From NCBI GenBank assembly GCA_016748015.1, contig JAAOMT010000586.1, positions 604,534 to 668,533 of the forward strand: 64,000 nt of DNA, in the 5' to 3' direction. The DNA comes from Geosiphon pyriformis. Taxonomy: Eukaryota > Glomeromycota > Glomeromycetes > Archaeosporales > Geosiphonaceae. Below the pieces are notes generated by a model. The model saw only the letters and a list, made by a program, of their open reading frames with translations, searched no databases and was not told where the DNA came from. The translations under genes were made by a program, and so were the position numbers. This document shows positions 11,830 to 60,074 of this stretch, in pieces; position 1 is the stretch's first letter, and each line of letters opens with the position of its first letter.

Positions 11830-11860
<31 letters not shown>

Positions 11861-11922
11861 GCTGTTGTTGTTGTTGTTGTTGTTGTTGTTGCTGTTGTTG
11901 TTGTTGTTGTTGCTGTTGTTGT

Positions 11923-11961
<39 letters not shown>

Positions 11962-23325: not shown

Positions 23326-24124
23326 TCTCGACAGGCAATTTGCGATTAAAGAACCATAGTCTAACTTTTAAAGTTATGTAAAAAAGGTTTGATTATTTTA
23401 AAAATTTTAATAATTAATAAAACACAATAATATTTATCATTATTTATTGTTTATTGTTTAAAGAAATTAAATTTTAAACAAATAATCTATTTAATTACCG
23501 AATAAATATTATGTAATTTAAATCATATATTAAATTATTATGTTAATTTAGAAAAACTCAAGTGGTTGGTCACGTGCAAACTGCGTCTATTATAGAATGT
23601 TTTTAGTTTTGTTTGTGATAGAAAAAAAAATTTCTAAGTTTTAAATATTTTTCATCAACTTTTTGTGATTAAAGTAAATTAATTTTTTAGAAATAAATTT
23701 AATTATTTTTTTGATTTGGATAATATTTAATTACAATTATTAATTCTAAATTTTAAGCTATTTAATCATAAAATATAAAAAATATTAATGTTTCAAATTT
23801 AAAAATTAGATAATTGTTTTTGGTAACATATTTTTAAGCAATTGTTATATATTATATTTTTAAAAATTTTATTATTTAAACATAATTTGTAAATTTAATT
23901 ATTTAAAATATTGTAAATATAAATAATCTATTTTATTTGTTATTAAATTTTTTATTTTATTGTTTTTTAGTTTTTATACAATATAATAAATTTTTATTAT
24001 TTATTTTGTAAATAATAAAACTGTTTAAAAGTTTGTTATTATGTTTGGCTTTTTGTTGTTTTTAAAAATACTTAATATTTTGTATTGTAATTTAATAAAT
24101 GTTTTTTAAAATTTTTAATAATTT
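23326..24124. other. BET1 upstream region and AT-rich spacer before the LINE array
   Basis: Mostly AT-rich sequence without a gene. It holds a short LINE-tail-like stretch (next entry) and a CACGTG at 23,571-23,576, about 245 bp upstream of the BET1 start. The boundary to LINE copy A is not sharp. Confidence 0.5.
23552..23615 (+). mobile_element. Possible LINE 3'-tail relic
   Basis: ACTCAAGTGGTTGGTCACGT, then a diverged GTCTATTATAGAATG stretch, resembles the LINE 3' UTR at 30,790-30,850 (GAATGACTGGTCACGTG, then CGTCTAGTTTAGAT). It is short, so it could instead be a promoter element with E-box CACGTG for BET1. Confidence 0.4.
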
Positions 24125-24175
24125 ATATATTTTTTCTACTTGCTATATTTCACTATTTCTCTTATAAATAATCCA

Positions 24176-29000: not shown

Positions 29001-30776
29001 ATCTGCAGGTTTTATGTTGACACCCTATTCATCCGTTGAGTTCTTCTGTTCACATTTGTGTTAGTGTCTTTAATAATTTTCTGGTGGGTGTGGTTTGCAT
29101 GTTTTATAATTGCAAATTGTCTTTGGGTAGATCTTTTGCCAATTCCTTTCGTGTTAATGGTGGGACACCCATGTCAACTGTTTTGGGTGAATCAGTTTTC
29201 TCCAGGTGTCTCCCCTTACTTCAGCAGTATAATGTGGCCTTTGTAGACCAACTTTGTGATCATCATGGTACAGTCTTTGATTGGTCCACATTTAAGCAAT
29301 GGAAAAAACTGGACCCCTGTGGCCTTGTTCCTGAGTGGTTCAGGCTTTCTGCTATGTTTCTTGCTGGTGAGGATTCCTCTTCTGCTCGCATCCCAGTTCT
29401 TGCTAATGTTGGTCCTTTGGATATTCTGGGTTCCTTTGGCTTTGTGTCTATCTGTGATTGTCTTTCACAGGTTGATGCAAGGATGTTGTCAGTCTATACT
29501 AATGAGTCATTGAGAAATTTGGGTACAGTTAGCTGTAAAGTGGATGCTGCAGCTTTTTTCGAGGATATTGGTATGGGTTTGGGTGTTGGTGTGTCTGGCT
29601 TGATGTCATCTATCATGGCTGAGTTACAGGCAATTGTATTGGCTCTTGAGTGTGTTCCTGTTTTTAGTAATGTCCATTTGTTTTCGGATAGTCAGTCTGC
29701 TTTGGATGCTTACAAATCAGAATTGGGTATGGTGGCTCCTGATTTCCAGAATCGATGTTGAATTGAGCGTCAGCACATTGCCAATGTCATTTCCTATAAG
29801 GTTCTAAATGTTATTTGGCACAAAGTCAAAAGTCATTCTGGAGTTTTGGGAAACAAGCATGTTGATTTAATTGTTAGTGCTGATTTTGTTTCTGACTGGT
29901 TTTTTTCTCCTTGCCTGGATAAACACTTTTTGATGGCTGATGGCAACATTGTCTCTGGCAATTCAAGGCACTTTGTCTGTGACACTTTTTATGCCATGTG
30001 TCATGCACATTGGGAAGTGGGGTCTGGTTCTAAATTTTTGCCTGACAACTTACGGGCTGATGTTGATTGGTCTTACTCATCTTTGGTGTGGCATCCTGAT
30101 TTGCATATGGCCACTGGTTTCACTAGCAAGATTTCAGCTAATGCGTGCTCTTATTTTATAAAGGCTTTGCATCATCAGTTGTCTGTGGCTGTTCATAAGC
30201 AGCTTTATAATAAACTTTATTCCAGTGTATTGTGTCTATATTGTGGTGACGTAGAGGTGTCGGATCATGTTTTTTTCTTATGAAGTTGATGATTCTGCTT
30301 GGTGTCGGTTGTTGAATTCTCACATAAACACTTGGAAAACACTTTTTGGTTCTTCTGTCTCTTTTTCATGTTTGTTGCAGTTGTTGTCGTCTTGTGTTTC
30401 AGGTTTCTCAATGTCCATGGCTCTTCATAAGGGTTTTGTTTTTGATAATTGGTTTTGTAAAGCTGTTTCTGTCTTCCATAATCCCAAGGTGGCATGTTTG
30501 AAGGTCGTTGATTTCGCACGTTCTCTTGGCCTCGCTTTTAGAGATGAGATATGATTAGTTCGTGCCAAACATCATGTCTATATAGAAAAGCATGGACTGA
30601 TTCCTTTAGATGGCTCGTCTCTTACTTCAGTCTCTGGTTTGACTTCACGTCTTTTTGCTAGTGTGGTTGATTTGCTTGGTATCAATGAAGCTTTTGGTGT
30701 GCATTTTGGTTTTCGCAAGTCTTGCATGTTTTTTTCCAGCATTGGTAATTCGGTTTCTGTCTATATAGCTGTGTAG
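26087..30776 (+). pseudogene. LINE A ORF2: endonuclease, reverse transcriptase, RNase H, zinc motif; broken
   Basis: The nuclease domain of endonuclease/exonuclease/phosphatase type starts IWKIATYNVRGINN and contains GGDFNE and IIDYVFV. Reverse transcriptase runs from about 27,400: GKATGLSGISNELWKH, then LTNTRLIALIETAYKI, DSVGWKHLE and the catalytic box FVDDMIWIG at 28,390. RNase H (about 29,490-29,860) has VYTNESL, AELQAI, FSDSQSALDAY and the WHKVKSHSG segment. The C terminus carries CLYCGDVEVSDHV, a zinc-type motif. Stops mostly replace Trp codons (26,638; 26,842; 28,801; 29,758; 30,552). A T-run gain at about 30,270 and a shift at about 27,150 break the frame. Confidence 0.87.
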
Positions 30777-30888
30777 TGTTGTTCTGACTGGCCTGAATGA
30801 CTGGTCACGTGTAGAAAGTACATGATTCACGTCTAGTTTAGATTATTTCTTTGATGTATAGTGCTAGGTTGTGTGTGGATCTCACTCG

Positions 30889-30911
30889 TTAATAATAATA
30901 ATAATAATAAA
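30889..30911. repeat. (TAA)n tail of LINE A
   Basis: TAA repeated seven times directly after the 3' UTR of copy A, in place of the A-run seen at the ends of copies B and H2. Confidence 0.85.
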
Positions 30912-30915
30912 ATTT

Positions 30916-30930
30916 ATTAACTTGAAAAAA
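30916..30930. repeat. Left target-site duplication of LINE B
   Basis: ATTAACTTGAAAAAA directly precedes the B 5' UTR. The same 15 bases occur at 40,043-40,057. They also start at the end of the B tail (37,737), where they are split by insertion H1. Confidence 0.8.
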
Positions 30931-31045
30931 AAACTTCTTTCTCTCTTACTTCCACAAACCCTCAAAAAATGCTTTTCTGATAAAGAAGTTTTTTATTTTT
31001 CCTTATTAGTATTTCACAATTTCTCTTTCTAACAACCCCTTTTTC

Positions 31046-32913
31046 ATGGACCTAGAAGCTGTCTCTAGTAGCAACATGTCTAAAAAAAGGCACCAAAGAG
31101 TGCTTTTCATGGTCCTGCTGGTGGTTCCTTCTCACAGAAGAAGAGAGTTGTGCTTGGGAATGTCAAACACTTAGGTGATAAAAAGGATATTTCTTTAGAC
31201 AGGTTTGAGCTTGGTAACAGTGTGTTCTCTAATGTGGATAGTGTGTCTGGTAATGAGGAAAGTACTAACATGACTGGCATTAATGTTGAGTCTCTTCTGG
31301 ATTCAGCCACCAATACTTCTAAAGCCAAGCATGTCAATACTGGTGCCATTTTTGGTTCACTTCTTGGTTCTCCTAATTTTGTCATGGATGATGATAATGA
31401 TGTTTCTCTTCCTCCTTATCTTTCAATCTCTCTGGAAAAAAAATGGATTGACCCTAAAATTGTTAAGACTCAGGTTAAGGTGTCTGTCAAAAAATCTTTT
31501 GCTCTTGATATCAATCTTAGTGCTATGGAAGAGAATTTGACAACAGCAAAAACTCAGTTAATTAGAAAAATTTTTTCATTGGTCAATAGTTTTGGGGGGG
31601 CCATTACTCCCTTAAAATTTGAAGGGATCATCCGATCTATTTTCACTTCTGAAAAAAGCATGAATATGGCTGTATCTTTGGCCAGAGAAAGAGAGATCGT
31701 CATAAACACTAATCTCAAGAAATCAGGAGTGCATTCAGATCAGGCCGTAGTAATCAAGAAAATTCCCATAAATACACCAAAAAAAATGATCGTTGCCACA
31801 GTTGCTGAATTTGGTAATATTAAATCAATTAGGATTCAGTTAATTGGTATGTAGCAGAAGGCTATGGTGGAATTTGTCGAATTGAGTCAAGCCAATCTGT
31901 TGGCATCAAAATGATCATTCCTAATCGGAAAAGACTCAGTGCATATGGCAAAAGCTGTGGAAGATCATGATATCTGGGCATCAAGGAACCATTTTAGGGC
32001 ACTTTTGTTTATCTTACCAGTGGGAACAACTGCATATGATCTTGGTACTCTTTTGGATAGGGCTGGTGGTAAGACTTGTATCATCAATAGATCTTTGGAC
32101 ACTGGCAATAGGTTTCATTGTGCTGTGGTTGGCTTTGAATCTGAGAAGGATTTGGATTCAGCATTTTGCACTGAGCCTGTTTTTGGTAGTGTGCGGCTCT
32201 TATAAGCTAAATTGAATTTGGTTCAATGTGGAAAGTGTGGGTATTTTGGGCATTCAGCTCTTAAGTGTGATGCTCCAATTGGCTCTATGCCATTGTCATC
32301 TTTGGTTAAGTCTTTTAAAGATTTTGTTTTTGAGGAAAGACGTTTCCAGCTGGCCAAGTTATATAAAAAGAAGGAAGTTCCTATCTCCTGCCCTGTTGCC
32401 TTTGGTGGAAAGTCTTGGGCCCAAGTGGTTTCAGTGGCTTCCCTCCTCTTTCATGGTTTTCTTGCTGGTTCCAGCTCAAATCTTTTTTCTTCTTCTTATC
32501 ATGACATTGGTAATGTTTCTTCTTTGAATAAACACTTGGCCTCTTTGGAATGCTCATTTGAGCTTTTTTCTGATCAAGTGTCCACTATTGTTAGACATCT
32601 TAATAGTGCTGAACTGGTACCTTTGGTGTCTTCCTCTTTTGTTTTTCCTCCTGATGTTTCTGCATCTTCGGGTTCAGATTCAGAATTGAATATGGTTTTG
32701 GATGGCACTTCAATGCTGTCTGCTCTTTCTTCTTCTACTGTTGATGTTGGTGTGTATGTTCTCAGTTTTAGTAGCTTTAGGACTCTCACTGGCAAAGTGG
32801 GTGGCTTGGAGTCTAAGTTGGCATCTTTGGAGGCTTCTATTGGTTTGGTGTTAGCACGTTTGGATGGCTTGTGCTCTAGTTCAGGTGCTTTTTCACATTT
32901 TTTCTCCAAATGA
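31046..32913 (+). pseudogene. LINE B ORF1, broken
   Basis: Starts ATGGACCTAGAAGC. One A is missing in the A-run at about 31,081 compared with copy D, shifting frame, after which it is open to 31,854. Stops at 31,852 (TAG), 31,912 (TGA) and 32,203 (TAA) all fall at Trp codons of the sister copies. It carries the two RRM-like folds (IKKIPINTPKKMIVATVAEF; LLFILPVGTTAYDLGTLLDR) and the knuckle CGKCGYFGHSALKC. It ends in TGA overlapping ATG of ORF2 (ATGA, 32,910-32,913). Confidence 0.85.
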
Positions 32914-35900
32914 ATAACCTAGTTTAGAAGTTTGCTATGTGTAATGTTTGGGGTCTCAATATTCCAGCCAAATGGGCAGACGTTGTTCATTGGCATGTAA
33001 GCTCTGAAAGTATGGTTTCTTTTGTTACTAAAACAAAGTTGAGGCCTTTCTCTGGACCATAGATCAAGGATGAATTTGAAGGGGTTCAGATCTTTACTTC
33101 TGGTTTGGATGTTGGTTATCTTAGTGCTGGTGTTGCTGTGATTATGAACAATTCTTTGGCTCACCATGTTTCTAAGATAGAAGTGGTTCCTGATTATATT
33201 ATCTTGGTGCATCTTCTGTTCAAAGACAAGCTTTCAGTAATTGTGTTAAGTTTGTATGCTGGTGCCTCTTTTGGCGTTTGTTTTGGGCAGGTGTTTAAGT
33301 TTTATTCTCTCATTGCTAAGACTGTTAATACCAGCAATTTTGTTGTTTTGGGTGGGGATTTTAATAAAAATAAGTCTGGGAGGAGTGCAAGTTTCAGGTT
33401 TTGCCTGGGTCTTGGTCTGGTCAATTTGTTTGCCAGCCATCAGTTGGCATTGGCTCCTACATGGTACAACTTGAAAGGGATTAAAAAAACTATTGATTAT
33501 ATTTTAGTTAGTAAGAGTCTGTCATCTGCTGTTGCTAAGCATTGGATTGGGTCAGTTTCAGATTTTTTTGACATGGATTATAGTGTTGTCATGGTGTCAG
33601 TTGGTCTGGATGGGCTTTTGGCTGTTCAGTTGAATAGCTTGCACAGGCAGGCTAACAAAAATTGTTGGAAGTTCAAGATTAAGGATGTGGATGTGTTCAA
33701 GTGTGATAAGTTTAGAGATTGTATTTCGGCAAGGCTTCTGTTGATTAAAGGCATTTTTGCTAATGCCAAAGCTGGTGGTAATTTAAATACTATGTGGGCA
33801 ATTTTAGAAAAGAAGATGGTTGAGTCTGCTGATGAGATTTTTTTCAGACTGTGGTTTAGCAAATTTTGTTGCTCTAGGAACAAATATTTTTCGAAGTTCT
33901 TTGGATTGGAGTTGCTCGTTACAAAAATTTTTGGTGCGGTCCATTCTGGCAATATGCTTGAAGTTGTCTGTCTCATAAAAAAATGGTCCACTTTGGATGA
34001 GAACAAAGCTTGCGTGTTCTCTAATTTGGTTAGATTGGGTAAGGATAGTGGAGTTCTTCTTAAGCATCTGTTTTCATTTCACAAGGAATACAGAAAATCA
34101 AAAATGTTTGAATCAAAGCTAGCTGAAGAGGCTTCTGTTAGAAAAGCTATAAAAAAACACATGGAGAGTTTCACTTCTAATAAAGAAGGCATGATCAAAA
34201 GTATTTTGGACTGGTCTTTTCACAAGGTGGTACTTGATTATTTGGTGGTTGATGGAGGCTTGGTTCTGAAACCTGGGGAGGTGAAGTCTAAAATGAATAA
34301 GATTATGGCAGGATGGACAAGGAAGTGGGTGATACTTACAGTAATGCCTGATCTCTGGGCTTGCCAATATGCGCCTTTGGATTATGTATGGAATGATGCT
34401 TTTTCTAGAGTGATGTGTGATATCAGTTTGGATGAACTGCTTTTAGTGGTTAATGATCTTTCTGATGACAAGGCTGCTGGCTTGTCTGGCATTCCTAATG
34501 AATTGTGGAAACATGGTAGTAATATAGTATTGGGTTGCCTTCTGGAGCTGTTGAATACATGTGTAATTGTTGGTAAGGTGCCTACTTTATGGAGGAGAGC
34601 ATGGGTGTCAATGATTCTAAAGCCTTATAATTGGGATGGAGTTCTTACAAATACTCAGCCTATTGCATTAATTAAGACTGCCAGGAAGATTCTCTCTGAT
34701 AGAATTTTGTCTGCTTGCAGCAAGTTTGGTGTTCTTCATGATGATAATTTCTCTGTTTTAAAGAGTATGTCTACACAGTCTCCAGTTTTTGCTGTTGGCT
34801 CAGTAGTTGAGAATGCTTTAGAGAAGAATTGTGAACTTTGGCTGGTGTTACAAGATATGCATAAAGCATATGACTTGGTTGGATGGCATTACTTGGAAGT
34901 GAGCTTGAAATGCATTAAGATGTGCAGCAAATTTATTAGTTTCTTCAGAGGCATACATAAGGATAAAATTAATAGGATCATGATGGATTTTGGTCTGTTG
35001 GATGACTATTGTGTACATGATAGTTTGGATCAAGGTGAGGTCTTCTCCCCCTTTTTCTGGAGGATCTTCTATGATCCACTCTTGTGTGAGGTTAAAAGGC
35101 ATAAACATTTGTGTGGATACAGGATTGATACTAATTTTATGGTGAAAACTGGCAGAATTGAGAATAGTAGTGGGATGTCATTCTTTTTTGCTGCTGGTGC
35201 TTTTGTGAATAATACGATTTGGGTGGAAGATTGCCAGGATTGCCAAACTTCCATGCAGTATGCTCTTAATATTGCCAGTAAATTTTTTTCAATCAATGAT
35301 ATTTCTATTAACAATAAGAAAATAGTGGCTATTCCAATTAATCAGAGTGTTAAGGTTGTCTCTTTGAGTATTAGTGGTCAACTGATCTCTATAGCAAAAA
35401 AAGATGAAGCTCACAGATACCTGGGAATTTTTTTGTCAACTAAGGAGTTGTCCAAACCTAGTTTAGCCAAGGCATATTTGGATGTTTGTTTCTTTGTCAA
35501 TGTTGTACTTAAGAAGACTATTATGAACAAGCAGTATTCTTATTTAGTCTCCACTGTTTTGCAGCCAATTGTTAGCTACAAAATGCAGTTTAGTTTTGTT
35601 TTTTCTGGTGTATGCTACAAGTGGAACGTTTTGGTTAGAAAAGGCCTCAGGTTTAAGACAAGCTTGCTTTGTGATTTCCTGAATGAGACTTTGCATCATC
35701 TTTCTCTTTATGGCTTAAAGCCTTTTGACCAGGTACAATCTGAAAGTAAGGTGGCTGTAGTGATATCTTTTTCAAATGCTCCAGACATTTTTGGTTGGTT
35801 GTTTCTTCATTGCTTCTTGGATTTACAGGTTCTTGGGTGGACACCTTTGAATCCGTTGCAGTTTCCAGTTAAGCTGCTCATTAGTCCTGTGAACAACTTT

Positions 35901-37598
35901 TTAGCTGGTATGGTCAGAATTTTTTTGAATTGTGAGCTGTCTTTGGCAGACTTTCTACCTAGTGCGTTTAGGGACCCTGGTTATTTTCCTATGCCTGAGA
36001 TTTTGGGGAAATTCTTGTTTCTTAGTTGTGTTCACTCTTTAAAGTGTTTTGGAGTTGCCTTTGATAACAGACTCCTTGACAAAAAAGGTGCTGTGATGGA
36101 TTGGAAGACTTTTCATTGTTGGAAAAGGCTTAATTCCAGGGGCCCTGTGCCTTACTGGTTTAATGTCATATCAAGGTTTTTGCTGGATAAGAGTTCAGTG
36201 TCACCTGCTGCTGTTAAAGCTGGTGGTTTTTCAGGCTGTAGCATTTTGGATTTTGAACAGTTTGCTTTTGTGTGTAATGGTTTGCTCGAAGTTTGATCTG
36301 GCTCTTTTGATGTTTATACTGATGGTTTGTTGAAATTTGCTGGCTCTTCCAGTGTAATTAGCGGAGCCACTGCTTATTTTCCTGCTTTGGATTAAGAAGT
36401 TGGTATTGGTGTTTGTGGGCTTTTATCTTCAACTTTATCAGAATTGCAGGCTGTGGCTCTTGCTCTGGAATGCATTCCTCTTTCCTGCACAGTGGTTTTG
36501 CATCTTGACAGCCAAGCTGCTATTGATGCATGTGTGTCCAAATTAGCTTTTGCTGTTCCTGATTTGTGCAATTATTGCTGAATCAAAAAAAAATATATTG
36601 CCAATTTGATTAAGAATAAAGATCTTGCTGTGAGTTGGGTTAAAGTCAAGGGTCATTCTAGGGTCTTTGGTAATGATAGAGCAGATACGCTGGCTGGTGA
36701 GGCTGCTGGCTCTCCTCTTTCTTTGCCGGCTGGGGTTCGTGAGTGTTTTTTGTTGGCTAAGAGTACTGCAATTTCAGGTAATGCTCATCACTTTGTCAGA
36801 AATGTTTATAAATCTATTTGTCGTGCTCATTGAGAGGCTGGTTCAGATCATGATGTGGTTCCAGTTGCTTTGTTGCAGAGTTTTGATTGGATTGCTTCCA
36901 CACAGGTTTGGCATCCTGATTTGCACATGTTTGCTGAGTTTACTAGCCATAAGTCTGCGATTCTTCACACATACTTGATGAAAGCTCTACACAAAAGGCT
37001 GCTGGTGGCTGTCCGCAAAAAGTTATATGATAAGAGTTATTCTGGCGTGCAATGTTTGTTGTGTAACAAAGTGAAATTGCCAGACTATGTCTTTACATGT
37101 TCACAGGATGTTTATATTCAGGGGGACATTTTGTCAGAAGTGTCTGCTCATTGGATTTCTCTGACTGGTGCTTGTGACCCATCTTCTTCTTCCATCTTGA
37201 GGACTCTTGATCTTTGTCATTCAGATGTCAGCTTGTATTCTGTCATGTGTAAAAGGTTTGTGCTTAAAGATTGGTGTGCAGAAGTGGTTGGCATTTTTGG
37301 TGATGTTAAGAGTGCAACTAGTGTGGTGGTTGACTTTGTAAGATATTTGGTTAAGTTGCATCAATCCAAGGTGTAGTTGACAAAATCTAAATTTAGAGTG
37401 AATATGGAGAGGGTGGACTTGGTTGATGATAATGGTTTGGTAGTGGGTTTTTCTTGTTGTGGGTCTTCTATGCTTTCAGATAGAGTGGTCAGGTTGCTTG
37501 GTATTGTAGAGTCTTTTGCTGTGAGTTTTGGCCATCGCAGGTCTTGTCCTTTTTTTTCTGGTTTGGATGGTAATCTGTATGTTGTTTTAGGTGTGTAG
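32910..37598 (+). pseudogene. LINE B ORF2: endonuclease, RT, RNase H; nearly intact
   Basis: Two early Trp-to-stop changes (TAG at about 32,925 and 33,060) precede a 1063-codon open stretch from 33,105 to 36,296. Motifs: VVLGGDFNKN, TIDYILVS, DDKAAGLSGIPNELWKHG, LTNTQPIALIKTARKI and DLVGWHYLE. At the catalytic box AGAFVNNTIWV replaces the FVDD of copy A, so both Asp are lost here. RNase H follows in broken pieces (DVYTDGLLKFAG; LSELQAVALALE; LDSQAAIDAC; VKVKGHSRVFGNDRADTLAG). The C-terminal zinc motif is CLLCNKVKLPDYVFTC. Further stops at 36,294, 36,393, 36,579, 36,831 and 37,374. The FVNN change alone should abolish polymerase activity. Confidence 0.88.
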
Positions 37599-37733
37599 TG
37601 TTGCCTTGTCTGGCCCGAGTGGCTAGTTACATGTAGAGAGTGTGTGAATCATGCTTAGTTTGAACCACTTAGTTTGGTTCTATGTACTAGGTAGTGGTTA
37701 GGCTTCATTTGTTAAATTGTTTTAATAAAAAAA

Positions 37734-37743
37734 AAAATTAACT
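37734..37743. repeat. Target-site duplication flanking half-LINE H1 (left copy)
   Basis: AAAATTAACT here and again at 40,040-40,049 bracket H1. The site lies in the tail and flank of LINE B, so H1 inserted after B. Confidence 0.75.
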
Positions 37744-40039
37744 TTTTTTTTTTATTTTTTATTAAATTTTAACGAGCGAGACCCAAATACCACCTAAACT
37801 ATGATATCACAGAAGAGATTACATTATAGGCGTAAATCATGCATTTTCTACATGTGATCAGACACTCGGCCTAATCAAAGACTCACTATGCTGAATCAAA
37901 AATAGGTGGAAATAATTCCAACTCACGAATTCTCTCAATGATACCATTCAGATTCCTAGAATCAAAAATAAACTCACTAAGAAACAATCTAATAGACTCA
38001 ATATTGCCTCTGGTTTCAGCACCAGACATACACCACAAAGCAATAATATACTCAATAGTGTCCTCACTTAAAAAGGAAGGCTTAGCAGCCAGCATACCAT
38101 TATAATCCATATTACCAAAGTTAACCTCAGATCTAAGACAAGCAATGTCCTTGGAGATCCCAACCAAGAGATTAGAAAAATTGTTAGCAGCACTCTTCAT
38201 AGAAATGAGATCCTTCGCAACCTGAACAGCCTTAGCAGCATTATCATTAAGAAGACGAGACACCAAAGCAACCAAAGAACCAACAGGCTCAACAATAGAC
38301 TTAACCAGAGCAGCCAAATCCGAAATCTGCTTTTTCAAAGAGTCCAATCTAGAACCAACAGCAGGATCAGCAACAGAAGCAGCCAAAAGAGCCACCAAAG
38401 GAGGAAACTCAGAAAGACCAGAAGAAGCAGCAGTCTTGGCATATGAAGCAGAACCCACAAAATGAGACCTGAAAATCTTGGGAACCTTGGGAGTGGGGGG
38501 TGGAAAAATCTTGCAATCTATGGCCAGATGGCCCATTTCTTGACACCTAAAGCAGCGCCGGCAGCCAGGAGTTTTCCACCAGATATGGCATTTCTTTAGA
38601 GTACCAGTCTTGACTACAGCAGAATCCAAATCGCCTTGAGAGTCAAATGTAACCAAAGCAAACCAGGAACAACGACCAGAATCAGGAGAACAAGGGATGA
38701 AACATGTATGACCACCAATCTGAGAAATCATATCACTGATTTCAAAAGCAGTACAACCAGGGGGAAGGTTGACCAATTTGGCCTTAAACTTATCACGAGA
38801 CAAAATAGTCTCATTTTGATTCACCAGAGGGAGGATTCTAACACTATCCTTGCCCACCAAGATTGACCAATGCTTCAAGACAGACACAGCAGAGTCCAAC
38901 TTTTCAAAATAAACCACTACATACTGCCAAATGCCAGCAGGCTTCAGCACAACACGAGCAACACTACCAAACACACTAAGAGCCAACTTAATGTTAGCAG
39001 CAGACACACCCAAAGGTATATCACGCAGCACAACAGCAGCAGAAGAAGAACCAAATTCAGAAACCACCAAAGACTTGGCAATTTTGAGGGTGGCCAAACA
39101 AACAAAGCTTGTGAGCTCAACTAGAAACGCAGCTTTCAAAGACTGTTGAGAAGCAAACTCCACACAGAAAAGCTTCACATTGTCTTTTGAAACAGATTTG
39201 GCACCCAAGAAACCATGCAAAAACTGAAAAACAGTCTTAACATGAGCCAATTTGGTCTTGAAAATAGCACCAGGCACCAGAGTGGAGGCCACCCACCCAG
39301 CAAACTTTTGACGACTAGTAATAGTTTCCCAAGCACTATCAGAAGTAGCACCAGAAACTAAAGGAGGAGATAAATCAGTTTCCATTTGATCAGCCCAGTT
39401 CCCAAGAACAGGTGACCCAACAGAAGAAGATTGTTTTGCTTCTAAAACCGGCGATGATCTGCTGGAAGACACCATATTTGGCAACACAGCCAGTGATTGA
39501 TCTTGGCCCATCTTGGATGACGTGTTGAATGATGCTATGGAGATCTCACCTAAGATCTCATTGGGAACCACAAAGGGGTTCGGTGTAACAATAGCAGAGA
39601 CAAGCGACTGCTCCCACTTTTCTAAACTTTTGGTCTTTTTGACCATTTTTTTTGAAAAGGTGGTGCCAGAAGCACCAGGTGTTAAGTCTATAGAGGGGAA
39701 AACCAGCTTATTTACTGGTCTATTATTAAAAACTTTTGGGCTCTTAGTCGGGGTGGAGGCAACACTGGGATTAACCCAAGTGTGTCTCTTTGAAGAAACT
39801 TTGACTGGTGAAAAACCAGCCAAAGATAGGGAAGTTGATTCAGTGGCTACCAAAGGCAGCTTTTCATGATTACTGGGTAAGGGGAAGGCTTCTAAAACAT
39901 TTTGCCTAATTGCTTCTACAACAGAAAGAGCTCCTCTGGTTAAAATTTTATTAGATATCTTAGGACAGATATCAGATGCAGCCTTTTTACTCTTAGCTCT
40001 GGTCGTGGTCATAAAATTAAGGAGACAAAGAGTGAAATT
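37744..40039 (-). mobile_element. ORF1-only 'half-LINE' H1, complete
   Basis: Non-autonomous retroelement on the minus strand. It has a short 5' leader (ACTCTTTGTCTCCTTAATTT before ATG), a single ORF and a 3' UTR with the family tail motif (GATCACATGTAGAAAATGCA, then CTCGCTCGTTAAAATTTAAT) plus an A-rich end. Flanked by AAAATTAACT. No nuclease or reverse transcriptase is present. It meets the tail of LINE B tail to tail. Confidence 0.85.
37886..40012 (-). CDS. Intact half-LINE H1 protein, RRM-RRM-CCHC (ORF1p-like)
   Basis: Uninterrupted 708-codon frame, the only intact transposon ORF in the window. The N-terminal about 300 residues are Ser/Lys-rich with KRHTWVNPSVA. They lead to an RRM-like fold (about 318-395; VVLRDIPLGVSAANIKLALS), a second (about 404-475; AKLVNLPPGCTAFEISDMIS) and a CCHC knuckle (about 482-495; CFRCQEMGHLAIDC). 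A long helical C terminus follows. WSILVGKDSVRI between the two folds matches WSFLIGKDSVRV of LINE ORF1, so the proteins are distant relatives with the same domain order. The expected role is RNA and cDNA chaperone in retrotransposition. Intactness next to decayed LINEs implies recent mobility or selection. Confidence 0.85.
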   Translation of the reverse strand: MTTTRAKSKKAASDICPKISNKILTRGALSVVEAIRQNVLEAFPLPSNHEKLPLVATESTSLSLAGFSPVKVSSKRHTWVNPSVASTPTKSPKVFNNRPVNKLVFPSIDLTPGASGTTFSKKMVKKTKSLEKWEQSLVSAIVTPNPFVVPNEILGEISIASFNTSSKMGQDQSLAVLPNMVSSSRSSPVLEAKQSSSVGSPVLGNWADQMETDLSPPLVSGATSDSAWETITSRQKFAGWVASTLVPGAIFKTKLAHVKTVFQFLHGFLGAKSVSKDNVKLFCVEFASQQSLKAAFLVELTSFVCLATLKIAKSLVVSEFGSSSAAVVLRDIPLGVSAANIKLALSVFGSVARVVLKPAGIWQYVVVYFEKLDSAVSVLKHWSILVGKDSVRILPLVNQNETILSRDKFKAKLVNLPPGCTAFEISDMISQIGGHTCFIPCSPDSGRCSWFALVTFDSQGDLDSAVVKTGTLKKCHIWWKTPGCRRCFRCQEMGHLAIDCKIFPPPTPKVPKIFRSHFVGSASYAKTAASSGLSEFPPLVALLAASVADPAVGSRLDSLKKQISDLAALVKSIVEPVGSLVALVSRLLNDNAAKAVQVAKDLISMKSAANNFSNLLVGISKDIACLRSEVNFGNMDYNGMLAAKPSFLSEDTIEYIIALWCMSGAETRGNIESIRLFLSEFIFDSRNLNGIIERIRELELFPPIFDSA

Positions 40040-40057
40040 AAAATTAACTTGAAAAAA

Positions 40058-40654
40058 TAAATATAAAATTTTAATTTAATAGATAGTTTTATGTATTAAT
40101 TTAAATAATGTAAATTTAAAAATTATTATTTTAATATATTAGAATTTTTGGATATTTATTTTTAAAATTGGTTATTAGAAAAATAATAAGTTTTATTAAT
40201 TTTTGTAAAATAAATTAAAAATAATATAGTAAATAAAATCTAAATTAAGATAATTGCTTCTTAATAAATTGTAAAATAATAAAATAAAATATATATTTTT
40301 TATTTAATATAATATTATATATATTTTTTGGTTATATAAAATATTCTAATAATTTTAATTATTTTTAGGTTTTATTAATATTTTTAAAATTTTTAACCCA
40401 AATTAATATAATTATGAATAGTTAATATATTAATAAAGTTTTTATAAAAAAATTTTTGCAAGTTTTAATTTTTATGTTTTTTTAAAAATTATTATATTCT
40501 TTTATTAACATAAAAATTAAATAATTATTGTTGATTAATTCCAAGTATTTTTAATAATATTTGTATAATAAATTTACAAATTTTAAATAATTTGTTTTTG
40601 CAAATTTTAATTTTGTTAATTTTATTAATTATTATTAATAATATTTTATTTTTT
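40058..40654. other. AT-rich spacer between head-to-head half-LINEs
   Basis: About 600 bp of AT-rich sequence with no gene. From 40,043 it continues the 3' flank of LINE B beyond the H1 insertion. H1 and H2 point away from each other across it. Confidence 0.7.
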
Positions 40655-40664
40655 ATAGATTATA

Positions 40665-42954
40665 ACTTAATAAAACTCTTTGTCTCCTTAATTTTATGAC
40701 CACAACTAGAACAAAGAGTAAAAAAGCTGCACCTGATATCTGTTCTAAGATATCTAATAAAATTTCAACCAAAAAAGCTTTCTCTGTTATAGAAGCAACT
40801 AGGCAGAATGTTTTAGAAGTCTTCTCTTTACTTAGTAATCATAAAAAGCTGCTTTTAGTAACTACTGAAGCATCTTCCTCATTTTTGGCTGGTTTTTTAC
40901 CAGTCAAAGTTCCTTCAAAGAGACACACTTGGATTAGTCCCAGTGTTGCCTTCATCCCTACTAAGAGCCCAAAAGTGTTTAATAATAGACCAGTTAACAA
41001 GCTGATATTTTTTTTTATAGCTTCAGTATCTGGTGCTTTTAGCATCTTCTTTTCAAAAAAATGGTCAGAAAGACCAAAAGTTCAGAAAAGTGAGAGCAGT
41101 CGCTTGCCTCTGCTATTGTTACACCGAACTCCTTTATGGTTCCCAATGAGATCTTAGATGAAATCTCCATAGTATCATCTAGCATGTTGTCCAAGATGGG
41201 CCAAGATCAACTATTGGCTGTGTTGCCAAATATGGTGTCTTCTGGCAGATTATTGCCAGTTTTAAAAGCAAAGCAATCTTTTTTTGTTGAGTTACCTGTT
41301 CTTAAGAACTGGACTGACCAGATGAAAACTGAATTATCTTCTCTTCTAGTTTCTGGTCCTACTTCTGGTGGTGCTTGGAAAACTATTACTAGTTGTCAAA
41401 GATTTACTGAGTGGATGGCCTCCACTCTGGTGTCTGGTGCTACTTTTAAGATCAAATTGGCTCATATTAAGGCTGTTTTTCAGTCAATACATGATTTTTT
41501 GGGTGCAAAGTCAGTATCAAAGGACAATGTGAAGCTGTTTTGTGTGAAGTTTGCTTCTCAAGTGTCTTTGAAAGCTGTGTTTTTAGTTGAGTTTACAAGC
41601 TTTGTACACTTGGCCACTCTCAAAATTACCAAGTCTTTGGTAGTTTCTGAGTCTGGTTTCCCTTCTGCTGCTGTTGTATTGTGTGATATGCCCTTGGGTG
41701 TGTCTGCTGTTGACATTAAGACAGCTCTCAGTGTGTTTGGTAGTGTCACCCATGTTGTGCTAAAGTTTGTTGGTGTTTAGCAATATGTGGTAATTTATTT
41801 TGAGAAATTGGACTCTATTATGTCTGCTTTGAATCATTGGTCAGTTTTGGTGGGCAAAAATAATGTTAAAATCCTCCCTCTGGTGAATCAAAATAAGATT
41901 ATTTTGTCTTGTAATAAGTTTAAGGCCAAGTTAGTTAATTTTTCTTTTGGATGCACAGCTTTTGAGATTAGTGATATGATTTCTCAAGTTGGTGGTTGGA
42001 CATATTTTATCTCTCGTTCTCCTAAGTCTGGTTATTATTTCTGGTTTGCTCTGATTACATTTGATTCCCAAGCTAATTTGGACTCTGCTATTGTCAAAAC
42101 TAGGACACTAAGAAAATGCCATATTTGATAGAAAACTCCTAGTTGTTAACATTGTTTCAAGTGTCAAGAGCTGAACTATCTGGCTGTAGACTATAAGATT
42201 TCTTTACCTCTCTCTCCCAAGTTTCCCAAAGTGTTTATATTACACTTTGTTGGTCTTAAGTCTTATGCTAAGACTTCTGCTTCCTTGGGTTCCTCTGAGT
42301 TTCCACCTTTGTCATCTCTTGTCTTTTTTTCAGTTGTTGTTGGTAATTCTTTGATGCTGTCCTATCTGTTTTCTTTGGAATCTGATTTAACTAAGCTTTC
42401 TGCTTTGGTTGAGTCTATTGTTAAGCTTATTGGCTCTTTGGTTACAACTTTTAAACAGTTTATTAATAATGATTTAGTTTCAAGTAGTGCTCTTGGTCTT
42501 AGAATCAATGAGATTTTAGTACATATGGGTTCTTTTAGTAGGACTGTTAGTAAGTTAAGGAGGGAAGTGGTTTCTTTGAAAAAGGAATGCTGCATGGAAG
42601 ACATTGATATGTCTGGTGATTCAGAGCTTCTGCCTGTTGTGGGTGATAAGGTGTTTTCCAACTTAATGTTCCTTTGGGAGCATGAGTCTGTTGATATTAA
42701 AACTGATTTCTTTAAAACTACCAAGTGGCTAATTGGTTTGATTTCTTACAATGCAACTTTGTTTTCTGTCATTCAGAAGATGTCATCTCTGGATAAGTTT
42801 TCTTTTATAGCATTAATATAGTGTGTTTTTGACTGGTCCGAATGGCTGATCACATGTAGAAAACACATAATTAGCACCTAGTTTAGATTGATTCTTTGAT
42901 GTATTGTTTTAGATAGCTTTTGGGCCTCACTTATTAAACTTTAATAAAAAAAAA
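40665..42954 (+). mobile_element. Half-LINE H2, complete length, mildly decayed
   Basis: Same structure as H1 on the opposite strand: ACTCTTTGTCTCCTTAATTT leader, ORF from 40,696, 3' UTR with GCTGATCACATGTAGAAAAC, A-run at about 42,945-42,954. ATAGATTATA occurs at 40,655-40,664 and 42,955-42,964, a candidate target-site duplication. Confidence 0.8.
40696..42822 (+). pseudogene. Half-LINE H2 ORF, broken
   Basis: Starts ATGACCACAACTAGAAC, parallel to H1. It is broken by a shift near 41,060-41,130, a TAG at 41,778 (Trp in H1: GIWQYV versus GV-stop-QYV), TGATAG at 42,126-42,131 (H1 has Trp-Trp at IWWKTP), and decay of the knuckle (the first Cys codons are changed around 42,145-42,175). The last open part ends at TAG 42,820. 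Confidence 0.8.
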
Positions 42955-43156
42955 ATAGATTATATTTTATAAAAAATATTAAATATTACAAATAGATATA
43001 TTAAATTATATTTTATAATTTAGTATTGTAATTTAATTATATTTTTTAAAAATTTTAATAAATTTAAAAATTTTTATGTTTAAATTTTTGTATAAAAAAC
43101 AGAAATTTAATTATTAATAATTTTTAATATTTAGTATTTTTTATAGTAATTAATTT

Positions 43157-44019: not shown

Positions 44020-47000
44020 AAATAAACTTTTTTCTCTTTTACTTTTCAAATCCTCTAAAGAGCAAATTTTTCGAAAAAGAAGTTTTTAATTTTTTTTTGC
44101 AAATATTTCTCAATCAAATAATCATTTTGTAATAAATTTGGCTGCTGTTTTAGGCAGTACTATGTCTAAAAAAAAAATATTTAAAGGAGTTTTTTATGGT
44201 CTTGTTAAGAATTTTTTTTTCCAAAAAAAAAAGTTTCATTTAATAATATTAAGCATTCTAAAGATGAGAAAGATATTTCCTTAGTCAAACCTGGTCCTGG
44301 TAATAGTGTGTTTTTAGCTATGGACAGTATATCTGGCAATAGTAAAAATAATAATATTATATTTAGTGTTGGCAATAATTCTCTTCTTGGTTTGGTGGCA
44401 AACATTCTTAAAGCTAAAAAAATTAATACTGGTCTGGTTTGTGTTTCCTCTTTTGGCTTGATCAATTATAGCATAAATGAAAATAATGAATTTTTCTCTT
44501 TTTTTTTTAAGATATCTTTCAACAAAAAGTGAGTTGATCCAAAAATTATCAAGACTTAAGTTAAAGTGTCCATCAAAAAATCTTTTGCTCTTAATATTAA
44601 TTTTAATACTGTGGAAGAAAAATCTATTATAGCAAAAACTCAAGTTGTTAGAAAATTATTCTTATTAATCAATAATTTTGGGAGGGGAGCTATTACTTTT
44701 TCAAAATTTGAAGAGATTATTCAATCTACTTTTACTTCAGAAAAAAGCATAGAAATAGTCATTTTATTGGCCAAAAAAAAGGGGATTAACATAAACAATA
44801 ATCTTAAAAAACAAAAAATAAGATCAGATTAGGCTGTGGTAATCAAAAAAATTCTCATAAACATGCCTAAAGATATGATCATTGCTGCAGTATCCAAATT
44901 TGGGAAGATTAAGTCGATTAAAATTCAATTGATTGAAATATGGCAAAAGACTGTGATAAAGTTTGCTGAATTAAATCAAGCTGATTAATTGATCTTAAAA
45001 TAATCATTCCTAATCAGAAAATATTCTGTACATATAGTCAAAACTATAAAAGATTGTAAGATTTGGGTGTCTAAAGATTGGTTCAGAGCACTTTTGTTTA
45101 TCTTGCTGATAGGAACAACAAGACATGATCTTAAGACTCTTTTAGAAAGAGCTAGTAAAAAAATTTGTGTTATAAATAGATCTATAGAAACTGGTAATAA
45201 GATTTACTGTGCTGTGGTTGACTTTAACTCTGATAAGAATTTGGAATCTGTCTTTTGCACAAAGCTGATCTTTGGTAGTATAAGGCTCTTTTGGACTAGA
45301 ATGGATTTGGTTTGTTGTAAAAAATGTGAATATTTTGGATATTTAGCTCTCAAATGTGATGTGTCAAGTATATCTGTGCTGCCATTGTCAAAAAAATTCT
45401 ATAAAAAGATTTTTTCTAAGGAAGTTTACTTTCAACTTGCCAAGTTGTATAAAAAAAAAATGTTCTAATTTCTTGCCCTGCTGTCTTTGGTGGCAAATTT
45501 TGGGCCCAAGTGGTCTTACTTGCTGGTTCTTCTGGTGATACTTACTTCAGTTCTGGTCCTGGTTTCTTTCCTTCTGGTGTCTTAAGTTTGGGTGGTACTT
45601 TTTATCTTATCTTTGCTGATAACTCATTTTTGAATGCTTATTTAGCCTCCTTAAAACACTTCTTAAAACTTTTAATGGATTAAGTTTCTGGTATTGTGTA
45701 CAAATTCAGCAATTTGGAATTGGTGCTTCTGGCTCCTTTTTTTTTTTTTTCATGTTTAACTACTCCAATAACTGCCAATTTGAATTTGGGTTTGACTATG
45801 GTTTTGAACAGCCCTATTTTAGTGCTTCTATTTCCTTCTTTTATTGTTTTTAATGTCTTAATTCTGGGTTCAAGTAGTTCAAAAGTGCTGACTACTAAAA
45901 TAGGCTGTTTAGAATCTAAGTTAGTGGCTCTTGAGGTCTCTGTTAATTCAGTTTTGATAAAATTAGATCAATTGTGTACTAAATTAAATTTTTATGTGCC
46001 TTTTTTTTCCCAATAAGTAATTTGGTTTGGAAAATTGCTACATGTAATGTTTGTGGTATCAATGTACTGACTAAGCAGAAAAATATTATACATTGGCACA
46101 TGAACTCTAATAATATAATTTCAATAATCACAGAAATAAAATTGAGATCTAGTATTAGGCCATAGATTATAACCAAATTTGATGGTATGTGAGTGTTTAC
46201 ATTTGGTTTGAATAAGAGTTTTTTTGATGCTAGAGTGATAATTATTATGAACAATTCTCTGGCTTGACATGTTTTTAAGATTAGGAGATGTCTGATCATG
46301 TTATTTCAGTTCAGCTTCTTTTCAAAAGCAAGCTTTTGGTCATAATTTTAAGCTTGTATGTTGGTGTTTTTGCTGAAACTAGGTTTGGTTAGGCAGTTGA
46401 AATTAATTTTTTTATTGCAAAAACAGTTAATGTCAGCACTTTTGTGGTTTTGGATGGGGATTTTAATAAAAATAGTTCTAAAGAGTGTGAGCTTTCAATT
46501 TTGTTTGGATCTGAATTTGGTCAATTTACTTGAAGGCTATTATTTGGCCAAAACTTTCACATGGAGCAATTTAAGAGGAGTTGAGAAAATTATTGATTAC
46601 ATTTTTGTTAATAAGTATTTATTGTTAGTAATTGCTAGTCATGAAATTGTTTCTGCTTCTGATTTTTTTAATACTAATTACAAGACTGTTATGATGTCAG
46701 TTGGTCTGAATAGACTTTTGGATTTTCATTTGAATAGTTTGCACAAACAAGCTAATAGAAATTATTGAAAGTTTAAAATTGCTGGTGCAGATGTTCTTAA
46801 ATGGGCTTGTTTTAAAGAATGTATTTTTGTCAAGTTTTTTTCTGTAGTTGGTAAGTTTTTATTTGCAAGTGCTAGTGGAGATCTTAATACTATGTGGAAT
46901 TTGCTGAAGAAGATAATAGTAGATTTGGCTAATAATGTTTTTTCTAAACATTGATTTTGTAATGTCAAATATTCTTTTAACAGACAATCTTTTAAGTTTT

Positions 47001-50000
47001 TTAAACTGAAACTAATGGTTGCCAAAGTAATTAAGTCTCTTTAATCTGGTAATTTTTTTAGGACTAATTTATTTTTTGGTGCTTGGTTAATTGTTGATAA
47101 AGTTAAGACTCTTAAAATTTGAGACATATTAGATAATAGCACCAGTGGTATAAATGTTTTTAGTTACTTGTTAAGGATTAGAAAAAGTTACTATTATTCC
47201 AAGATGCATGAATCTAAGACTACTAAGTCTGCTGTTATTAAGTGTGCCATTAATAAGAAAATGAAAAATTTTTGCTTAAACAAAGACCATATAATCAAGA
47301 GTATATTAGATAAGCCATTTTATAAAATAATTTTTGATCATTTAATTGTTGATGATAAGCTGGTTTTTGATCTTGATAATATTAAATCTAATGTTAATAT
47401 TATAATGGAGGAGTGAACTAAGAAGCATTTAGTTTCTGAATCTTTGTTTGATCTTTAAGCCTGCCAATATGCCTTTTTATAATATGTGAATAACAATGTT
47501 TTCTCTGATATTATGAATGTTGTTAGTTTTAATGAGTTGGTTTAAGTTGTTAGATATTTACCAAATAGAAAAACTACTGATTTCAGTGGTATTTCTAATA
47601 AATTGTAAAAGCATTGTAATGACCATATTCTCAGAGGTTTTTTGGATTTTTTGAATTTGTGTTTGAAGTTGAATGCTGTTCCAATTTTATGGAAAAGAGC
47701 ATAAGTTTTAATAATACCCAAACCTTATAAATGGAATGGCATCTTGATGAATACTCATCCTATTGCTTTGGTTGAGACTGTTCATAAGATTTTTTTTAAA
47801 ATTCTCTCAGATCAAATCTCTTTTGTCTGCAATAAATTCAGTATTCTCTATGGGAATAACTTCTTTATTTTAAAAAGTACTTTGACACAGTCTCCTATTT
47901 TTGCAGTTGGTTTAGTGGTTGAAGATGCTTTGAAAAAAGACAAAAAAGTTTGGTTGGTTTTGCAGAATATGCACAAGACATATAATTCAATTGGTTGATA
48001 TTATTTAAGAGCTAATTTGTGACATATCAAAATGTGCAAGAGATTTATTGAGTTTTTTGGTGGAATTCATAAGGATAGATTGAACAAAATCATAACAGAT
48101 TTTGGCCTTTCAGATAGATATTAGGTGTTTAATGGTTTTGATTAAGATGAGATGTTTTCTTTCTTTCTTTGGCAAATTTTTTATGACTTTTTTTTTGTGC
48201 AAAGTCAAAAGACAGAAGAGTATATGTGGTTATCAAATTAATACTAAGTTTGTGATCAAGATAAAGAGAATTAATAATGTGAGTAGAATGATTTCTTTTT
48301 TCATGACTAAAGCTTTTGTGGATGACATTATCTGGGTTGGGAATAGCCAAGCTGCTACACAATTTATTTTAGACATTATTAGTGACTTCTTTTTAATTAA
48401 TATTATTTCAATTAATAATGACAAAATTGTTGTCATTCCTATTAATAAGAGGATTAAAAATGCTGTTCTCAGGATTAGTGGATTCTCTATTTCAATTGCA
48501 AAGTGTGGTGTATTTCACAGGTACTTGAGTATCTTCTTGTCTACTAATGGTTTATTCAAGCCCAGTTTGGCTAAGACTTAATCTGATATAAAGTTTTTTT
48601 TCAATATGGTGTTGAGAAAAACTATCTTGGATAAGCAGTTTTTGTATTTGGTCTCAGCAGTTCTGCAGCCCATTGTTGGCTACTGCACTCAGTTTAATTT
48701 TATTTCTTTCACTGTTTACCAGTGTTGAAATGTTTTGGTTAAGAAAGATTTTAAGTCAAAGACTAGACTGTCTCGTAATTTTTCAAATAAAGTGCTGTAT
48801 TATCTTTCATTATATGGTTTGAAAACATTTAAGCAAGTTCAAACTAAGGAGAAGTCAGCTTCAATTGTTATTTTTACTAATGCTTCTGGAATTCTTGGTC
48901 AGCTTTTTGAGCACAGATTTTTGGATTTGTAGGTTTTGGGCTGGGCTTTTCTGAACTCCTTACAATATCCAGTATAGTTGTATGTTAGTTTTTCAAACAA
49001 TTTTTTGGCTGAAATTGTGCATGTTTTTTTGGACAATAGTATTTCTATGACAAACAATTTGCTCTGTATTTTTTTTTGTTCTGGCAGGTTTTTTGTTTCA
49101 AGTGTTTTGGGGCCATTATTGTATTATGATTGTATTAATTTCTTAAAAAGATTTGGTGTGCCTTTTTATAACAGACTTTTGGACAAATGCAGTAGAATTT
49201 TAGATTGGAGAACATTCCAAAATTAAAAAAAATTAGACTTCAGAGGATTTGTGCCCTTTTGGTTTGTTTTGGTGTCAAAGTTTTTACATGATTCTGTGCT
49301 TACATTAGCATTTTCTAACAGAGATTCTGTGTTGAATGTTAATAATGTTTTGTTATCTGGTCAGTTTTTTGATATTAAGAGTAGTTTGCTTAAAGTCTGG
49401 TCAAATATTTTTACTGTATATACAAATGGTTTCTTAAAAGAGCTTGGTTTTGTTAATGTGGCTAGAAATGCTGCTGCATTCTTTTCTGAGATTAATTTGG
49501 GCATTAAAGTTAAGATTAATAAGTTTTTGTCTTTTATAATGGCAGAATTACAGGCTATTGCTTTGGCTTTGAAATGTGTGCCCTTTTTTTGTTTAGTGGT
49601 AGTGTGTTTGAACAGTTAGACTGTATTGAATACATGTGTTTCAGAGTTGAAGTTATCTGGTCCCAATTTTTGTAGTAATTGTTAAATAGAGAGAAGACAT
49701 ATTGCAAATTTGATTGTTAATAAGAACATCTCTGTGGTCTGGTTAAAGGTTAAAGACCACTTAAGTATTTTGAGTAATGTTTGCACAAATGCTTTGATAG
49801 AAGTGGCTGCTTATTCTTCTTTGCTGTTGCTGATTAATGTATGTAAACATTTTATTATGGTTAATAATCTGCTGGTTTCTGATAACATTTATTATTTTAT
49901 TTGGAATATTTTTAGATTGGTAAATCATGCACATTGGAAAATTAGTTCTGGTTCTAGGATTTTAGGTGGTTTTTTGGTTTATGATATTGATTGGATTCAT

Positions 50001-50850
50001 ACTATAGCAGTTTGGCATCCAGATTCATATATGTTGTTAGGATTTACAAGTAGGGTTTTAGCTAGTTTGTGTACTTATTTTATGAAAACTGTCTATAAAA
50101 AACTGTTTATTGCTATTAGGAAGAGACTTTATAACAAATATTATCCTGGTGTTTTATGTTTACATTGTAAAGAGGTTAAGTTTTCTGATCACATGTTTAT
50201 GTATAGTAAAAAGTCTATCTCTCATAAGACAATTTTGTTTGAATGTATTTCATTTTGGAGGTTTCTGGCTGGTTCTCATTTTTTTGCCTTTTTTATGATT
50301 GTGGAATTTTTTCTTTTGTGTTTATTTGATGTTAATTTGTATATACTTTTTTGCAAGAGCTTTGTATTTGTGGGATAGTTTGAAGAGATAATACAGATTT
50401 TTGAAGATCATAAAAAGACTGCTCAGATTTTGGTTAATTTTACATGTAATTTGGGTATATGACACTGTTCTGAGTTGTAGAGATTCAAATTTAGATTTAG
50501 AGTAGATATAAAGAAAAATAATTTAATTGGTGATTCAGAGGTGGTGCCTGTGATATTTGTTGGCTTGGTGCTGGTTCTATTAGATAGTGTGATTAGGTTG
50601 ATTGGTATTAATAATTTCTTTGGAATTAGTTTTAGTTTCTGTATATCTTGCTTATTTTTTTTTAGTTTTAGTAGTAAAGCTACTGTTTGTATAGGGGCTT
50701 AGTGTTGCTTTAATTAGTTTGAGTAACTAGTTACATGTGATAAATATGTGAATTGTATCTAGCTGGAATTCATAGTTTTGACTCTGTATACTAGATAATA
50801 ATTGGGCTGTATTCATAAAATGTTAATAAAAAAATAAAAAATAAAAAAAA
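44020..50850 (+). mobile_element. LINE copy D, full length, heavily decayed
   Basis: The 5' UTR aligns with copy B (AACTTTTTTCTCTTTTACTT). ORF1 remnants run from about 44,160 to 46,014, including KMDLVCCKKCEYFGYLALKC-type knuckle sequence around 45,310. ORF2 remnants run from 46,020: FTWSNLRGVEKIIDYIF; TNTHPIALVETVHKIFFKI as MNTHPIALVE at 47,744; the RT box AFVDDIIWVG at 48,310, which is intact; RNase H VYTNGFLKELG and MAELQAIALALK at 49,410-49,580; CLHCKEVKFSDHMFMY at 50,150. Dozens of stops, many C-to-T or G-to-A changes relative to A and B. The tail with A-runs ends about 50,850. Confidence 0.88.
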
Positions 50851-50867
50851 GTTGATATTTTGTTAAT

Positions 50868-60070: not shown

Positions 60071-60074
60071 AAAA

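Follow-up and report, generated by a model that had tools for sequence, protein, structure and literature searches.

A probable family of non-autonomous, ORF1-only LINE-like elements with a LINE-related structured 3′ tail in the Geosiphon pyriformis genome

Results

ORF1-only elements in the window

The window is the whole 64,000-nucleotide (nt) stretch of Geosiphon pyriformis DNA that was analysed (contig JAAOMT010000586.1, positions 604,534 to 668,533). It contained several long interspersed elements (LINEs) with two open reading frames (ORFs) and three elements with ORF1 only, namely H1, H2 and G, here collectively called H (Table 1). H1 and H2 were oriented head to head inside the 1.05-Mb contig and carried an identical 28-nt motif at the 5′ end (chance expectation 0). 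The 708-codon frame of H1 was open, as an earlier reading made from the sequence alone had stated, and matched Pfam RRM_1 (E 3.5e-06) and zf-CCHC (E 5.4e-05), both past the Pfam cut-offs. H2 and G were broken copies of the same kind. No reverse transcriptase was found between ORF1 and the tail in H1, H2 or G, and all three terminated in tails related to LINE tails. The central claim of the sequence-only reading, that these are ORF1-only elements with a LINE-type 3′ tail and no reverse transcriptase, therefore held for all three. Its claim of two defined ends held for H1 and H2, which have a common 5′ end and target-site duplications, whereas the ends of G are only approximate; the interval to which it assigned the family (37744..42954) includes H1 and H2, with G outside.

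The ORF1 of H was 25–27% identical to the ORF1s of L1, L2 and L3, while pieces of the L2 ORF1 were 38–62% identical to the ORF1s of other LINEs. The reverse transcriptase and endonuclease matches of L2 fell under the curated Pfam cut-offs. Tails were located with a profile made from six window tails (H1, H2, G and three LINE tails); independently of this profile, single tails matched each other and fetched copies by blastn. Rfam gave 0 matches in the window, and scanning the 5′ region for bacterial-type promoters, which is uninformative for this host, gave nothing.

Table 1. Coordinates of the ORF1-only elements and two-ORF LINEs in the window.
Feature	Position	Strand	Basis
H1, ORF1-only element, intact ORF, class A C-terminus, H1-type tail	37744..40033	minus	
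H1 ORF, 708 codons + stop: variable N-terminus, RRM-like folds, CCHC knuckle, helical C-terminus	37886..40012	minus	
H1 LINE-like structured 3′ tail, starting at stop codon	37744..37885	minus	tail profile
H1 conserved 5′ end motif, 28 nt	40006..40033	minus	
H1 target-site duplication, 5′ copy, AAGTTAATTTT on minus strand	40040..40050	minus	by eye
H1 target-site duplication, 3′ copy, AAGTTAATTTT on minus strand	37734..37744	minus	by eye
H2, ORF1-only element, broken ORF, class B C-terminus, H2-type tail	40675..42954	plus	
H2 conserved 5′ end motif, 28 nt	40675..40702	plus	
H2 LINE-like structured 3′ tail	42821..42954 (profile match 42821-42961)	plus	
H2 target-site duplication, 5′ copy, ATAGATTATA	40655..40664	plus	by eye
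H2 target-site duplication, 3′ copy, ATAGATTATA	42955..42964	plus	by eye
G, strongly decayed ORF1-only element, class B C-terminus, G-type tail	~50867..53140, ends approximate	minus	
G tail	50998-50867	minus	tail profile
L1, two-ORF LINE, different ORF1, related tail	24100..30920, start approximate	plus	
L2, two-ORF LINE, ORF2 frame 33063-36296	30980..37742, start approximate	plus	
L3, decayed two-ORF LINE	44020..50844, start approximate	plus	

Genome-wide copies

The 124.7-Mb assembly containing the window was scanned for both ends of the element. The 5′ end motif occurred at 422 places with at most three mismatches (226 and 196; control 0), and a stretch of the H1-type tail at 44 places under the same limit (control 0). 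Downstream sequence was inspected for the 100 5′ ends with the fewest mismatches. An H1-type tail lay 2182–2490 nt downstream in 28 of these, and another 16 were inside H1-like protein matches. The remaining 56 were all sampled downstream and 49 had a LINE-like tail (19 of 20 and 30 of 36). An ORF2 between ORF1 and tail was found in none of the 56. The sequence-only reading had held that these elements would be simple deletions of a second LINE family if their type of ORF1 were as a rule followed by an ORF2 of its own; among the 56 sampled 5′ ends this arrangement did not occur. In two copies (L040 and L048) the C-terminus and tail were found about 1 kb further along, with no ORF2 match there; two others (L140 and L143) had ORF2 matches, but these were antisense and past the tail.

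Protein searches scored the best candidates (61 of 5445, 43 of 8175, 150 of 4528 and 150 of 1459), and 20 matches were fetched from each of the two 150-match searches. The tail followed the ORF1 protein match by 3–13 nt in 29 of 30 H1-type copies fetched with flanks and by 3–20 nt in 20 of 20 H2-type copies. Neighbouring LINE pieces were present in the flanks of six of the 30 H1-type copies and never inside an H unit. On the LINE side, all 14 LINE copies examined (from 43 L2-like matches) had an L-type ORF1 upstream of ORF2. These ORF1s were 28–80% identical to L2 ORF1 pieces and 23–33% identical to H, and their summed scores to L2 ORF1 exceeded those to H. Four LINE ORF1 copies (L115, L118, L124 and L113) had open frames of 611–649 residues, so some LINEs look young. 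Searches for relatives in viral contigs and prokaryote genome contigs found none.

Insertion as a unit

The distance from the 5′ motif to the end of the tail core was 2256–2266 nt in 26 of 29 H1-type copies (2244, 2273 and 2541 nt in the others); the copies measured were the best full-length protein matches, and the sample therefore favours full length. Target-site duplications were scored in 30 copies (the 29 H1-type copies and H2) with a composition-weighted score that was adopted after the result of a first score had been seen. That first score (at least 8 nt; 18 of 30 copies vs 42% of 870 controls) was dropped because A-rich flanks swamped it. With the weighted score, 10 of 30 copies reached at least 14, vs 1.0% of 870 mispaired controls (Mann-Whitney p 5e-10). 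The duplications of the H copies examined lay in A/T-rich DNA and were often separated from the 5′ motif by filler of variable length, mostly A-rich. Together, the duplications and the near-constant length of copies chosen as best full-length matches support movement of H as one unit. H thus has the target-site duplications and A-rich 3′ end of LINE-type elements, those without long terminal repeats (non-LTR); the reverse transcriptase ORF of an autonomous LINE was absent from the copies sampled.

H1 adjoins the A-rich tail of L2. In all, three pairs of elements in the window were tail to tail with their A-rich ends touching: 37599-37885 (L2/H1), 50702-50998 (L3/G) and 59944-60184 (L4 and an opposite-strand element). 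These three pairs, taken without a control, suggest a preference for insertion at A-rich tails of older elements, with the incoming element in opposite orientation.

Structured 3′ tail

RNAalifold placed 23 pairs in an alignment of 39 H and LINE tails, 14 of which were changed on both sides. Counted as four helices, 94.5% of the alignment cells were paired vs 25–38% with one side slid, a comparison that favours the fold because it was taken from the same alignment. None of 500 shuffles reached the observed values for paired cells, for cells with changes on both sides or for the covariation score. H elements and the resident LINEs have in common a tail that folds into four covarying helices, and the likeness of the H tails to LINE tails noted in the sequence-only reading was thereby confirmed.

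A first tail tree omitted two duplicate rows and two that were truncated or unsure, and kept nine of the 28 fetched H1-type tails. On this tree the H and LINE labels required four changes. A swap of tails between LINEs and H elements was considered and dropped, as a single clade of all H tails was not rejected by the approximately unbiased (AU) test (p 0.46; eight further decayed rows removed).

Mosaic composition

H proteins formed two C-terminal classes, A (H1-like) and B (H2-like), which were homologous to each other (hhalign 99.7%) and had no detectable relation to the C-termini of five LINE ORF1 sequences (hhalign probability at most 1%). Classes were set on protein matches, yet after the first tail tree had been seen, and tail types were assigned by best match to six reference tails of our choosing. 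A tail was present in 100 of 107 sequences; 96 of these had enough upstream sequence, representing 92 distinct copies because four were present twice (L139 = L062, L131 = L064, L033 = L063, L160 = H2). By distinct copy, class A comprised H1-type (32), L048-type (9), L047-type (7) and H2-type (1) tails, and class B comprised TATAGCC-type (21), H2-type (11), G-type (7) and L047-type (3, and one further unsure) tails.

The L047-type tail was thus present on both classes. Among copies with this tail, A–B identity rose at the stop codon, from 0.33–0.57 across most of the ORF's final 150 nt to 0.82–0.90 in the tail; A–A and B–B identities were at least 0.69 throughout. Class A as one clade was rejected in a second tail tree (61 of the 96 rows; log-likelihood loss 61.6, AU p 0.001) and in a core tree of 12 copies (AU p 0.0004). 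In the core, three H1-type copies were 88–91% identical to two TATAGCC-type class B copies; one such copy was nearer H1 before about +1540, just past the CCHC knuckle, and nearer H2 beyond about +1650. Because class A was rejected as a clade in both tail and core and the breaks were located, exchange of core, C-terminus and tail between H lineages is taken as shown. Judged by these comparisons, the H family is a mosaic in which the core, the C-terminal domain and the tail have different histories. H1, H2 and G had been taken for three copies of very different age; they belong to different subfamilies by C-terminal class and tail type, and the divergence among them therefore does not measure age alone.

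ORF1 protein and selection

The AlphaFold2 model of the H1 protein was poor overall (mean predicted local distance difference test score 47.8). It contained RRM-like strand-helix patterns at residues 258–331, 346–415 and 433–491, and long helices at 571–650. The best Foldseek matches in PDB were RRM proteins at low template modelling scores (TM-scores), and a PDB profile search gave a single weak match (E 0.074). At low confidence, the model suggests three RRM-like folds in place of the two described earlier.

A full-length frame was present in three of 29 H1-type copies. The nearest-copy identity of H1 was 0.934 and no outlier (range 0.909–0.942). Most changes within the H1 subfamily were C to T or G to A. 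In the H1-type copies L001–L030, C in CpG differed at 30.6% of copy-sites vs 7–11% in other contexts. This bias and the excess of C to T and G to A changes are as would be expected of cytosine methylation.

Ratios of non-synonymous to synonymous changes (N/S, observed/expected) between H2 and three H1-type copies were 0.45–0.57 in residues 261–430 and 0.33–0.48 in residues 431–530; counts were small (16–29 non-synonymous, 22–29 synonymous) and the decayed H2 was common to all three comparisons. In close pairs (H1 with L005 and L012) core N/S was 0.67–2.34. With these small counts and H2 in every comparison, the RRM/CCHC core appears to have been under purifying selection as the subfamilies diverged. 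Plain pairwise dN/dS, the corresponding ratio of substitution rates, was 0.36–0.39 for class B C-termini at 50–70% identity and 0.61–0.79 in closer pairs; between the C-termini of H1 and class B it was 0.95, near saturation. With a mutation-matched expectation the class B values became 0.56–0.68 at 40–65% identity, 0.75 at 65–70% and 1.0–1.4 in closer pairs. Plain C-terminal dN/dS leans low under mutation bias; it was therefore set aside as evidence and selection is claimed for the core.

Other features of the window

Host-like frames on the minus strand at 4735-5340 and 7818-8339 had matches to a DEAD-box helicase and to the ketopantoate reductase ApbA past the Pfam cut-offs. An open frame encoding 1206 residues, among them long glutamine runs (8946-12566, minus), had no Pfam match at E 0.01. 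Across 2 kb (14001-16000) G+C dropped to 12.5%. An 18S rRNA gene stretch (L161, G000:C320:1045300-1045700), which matched the Rfam eukaryotic small subunit model, lay on the same contig about 377 kb downstream of the window. The stretch also contained, with one mismatch, a primer site specific for arbuscular mycorrhizal fungi, which points to a host in Glomeromycotina.

Discussion

Non-autonomous elements and their mobilisation

With a probability of roughly 0.85, H is a large family of ~2.27-kb non-autonomous LINE-like retroelements that encode only an ORF1-type RNA-binding protein, end in a LINE-homologous structured tail and would be mobilised by the ORF2 protein of a LINE. The common tail and the target-site duplications point to mobilisation in trans by a partner LINE. 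The H protein would coat its own RNA in cis, which would keep the H ORF under selection. A LINE ORF2 protein would recognise the H tail, nick A/T-rich target DNA and copy the H RNA by target-primed reverse transcription. The modules may have been exchanged by template switching when RNAs are packaged together, or by recombination of copies in the genome. It is possible, though we offer it tentatively, that a tail swap at the stop codon re-targets an H element to a different partner LINE, and that H is a long-lived protein-coding parasite persisting by shuffling core, C-terminus and tail.

Several observations weigh against this interpretation. Twenty of the 30 copies fell under the target-duplication threshold. 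Selection among copies was divided: the core showed signs of constraint between subfamilies, and within the H1 subfamily N/S was near neutral (0.92–1.09 in every frequency class). Between H2 and the three H1-type copies no constraint was seen in residues 21–260 (1.08–1.82; 118 codons compared) or in the C-terminus (0.96–0.99). For two further measures of the tail fold, pairs changed on both sides and further pair types, 126 and 185 of the 500 shuffles equalled or exceeded the observed value. Because all H tails as one clade were not rejected, no particular LINE can be named as the partner. In the census, the downstream inspection covered 100 of the 422 5′ ends, and seven of the 56 sampled ran into other sequence. 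LINE ORF1s were sampled only beside L2-like ORF2s and in the window, and another LINE family may have an H-type ORF1. Finally, all of the evidence is at the level of sequence.

The H copies might alternatively be internal deletions of a two-ORF LINE with an H-type ORF1, the autonomous parent lying elsewhere in the genome or in relatives. H ORF1 is homologous to LINE ORF1 (23–33% identity in the RRM/CCHC region), which makes a former ancestor with ORF2 probable. The deletion reading has against it the absence of ORF2 from the 56 sampled 5′ ends, the tail directly after ORF1 in nearly all H1-type and all H2-type copies, the different ORF1 in every LINE sampled, and the near-constant length and target duplications among copies, and we regard this explanation as quite unlikely. 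Capture of the protein was raised in the sequence-only reading. If ORF1 had been captured or domesticated as a host gene, with the other copies as its retropseudogenes, this would account for the intact frame in the window and for the apparent purifying selection seen in the core when subfamilies are compared. Such an origin is not supported, and we consider it very improbable: H1 bears its own insertion signs (a target duplication, and a tail against the L2 tail), three of 29 H1-type copies have full-length frames, H1 is no outlier in nearest-copy identity, and several subfamilies have separate tails. That the H protein also serves LINEs besides its own RNA, a mutualism as in HeT-A/TART, is compatible with non-autonomous elements mobilised in trans. 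Gag sharing is known for HeT-A/TART (passages in PMC5537684) and H and LINEs have tails in common; the sampled LINEs have their own ORF1, with open frames in four, and show no sign of dependence, and this additional role seems rather unlikely.

Comparison with known systems

Elements of this kind are already known, and few ORF1-only LINE-type elements are known to us, the cases named here being HAL1 (half-L1) of mammals (Bao and Jurka, 2010, as cited in PMC4161310) and HeT-A. With 422 5′ ends, multiple subfamilies, a core that is conserved and tails that can be exchanged, the H family offers a natural experiment on why a non-autonomous element retains an ORF1 protein and on how tail recognition binds a parasite to a LINE. 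The resident two-ORF LINEs (L1, L2 and L3) have the tail fold, a homologous RRM/CCHC region and the GKDSV motif in common with H, and differ in the presence of ORF2, another 5′ end and an ORF1 C-terminus without detectable kinship. Some short interspersed elements (SINEs) carry the 3′ tail of a partner LINE; they are tail-based parasites of the LINE enzyme with modular tails and no ORF. H resembles them in its modular tails and its putative tail-based use of a LINE enzyme, but encodes a conserved protein (the 708-codon ORF).

In the arbuscular mycorrhizal fungus Rhizophagus irregularis, unclassified repeats are given as 32% of the genome in PMC8647823 and as two-thirds of transposable elements in PMC11075540; H-type elements could make up part of these if the host is related. 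The terms "ORF1" and "non-autonomous" had 0 occurrences in the main texts of PMC8647823, PMC11075540 and PMC10234402 on this species. Literature searches by title and start of abstract, mostly outside subscription papers and so no proof of absence, found no description of a fungal ORF1-only LINE family among the papers listed. H shares with HAL1 an ORF1-only unit without ORF2 in the copies sampled, a LINE-type 3′ end and no reverse transcriptase; HAL1 is likely mobilised by L1 machinery, and a corresponding trans step would apply to H. HAL1 is derived from L1 and has an L1-like ORF1. By this definition, with the resident LINEs rather than a mammalian L1 as the comparison, H is not a HAL1. Unlike that of HAL1, the H ORF1 is of RRM/CCHC type and 23–33% identical to the sampled LINE ORF1s, and H has its own conserved 5′ end, a structured tail and a mosaic of exchanged modules. 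The parallel with half-LINEs drawn in the sequence-only reading thus appears to stand for mechanism and not for membership.

HeT-A of Drosophila telomeres is described in passages of PMC5537684 as a Gag-only non-LTR element with no reverse transcriptase of its own and with negative selection suggested on gag. H is likewise a Gag-only non-LTR element. HeT-A goes to chromosome ends and forms head-to-tail arrays there, whereas H1 and H2 are head to head, other H copies lie on many contigs, and target duplications in A/T-rich DNA were present in those examined. Unlike HeT-A, H has a covarying tail in common with LINEs.

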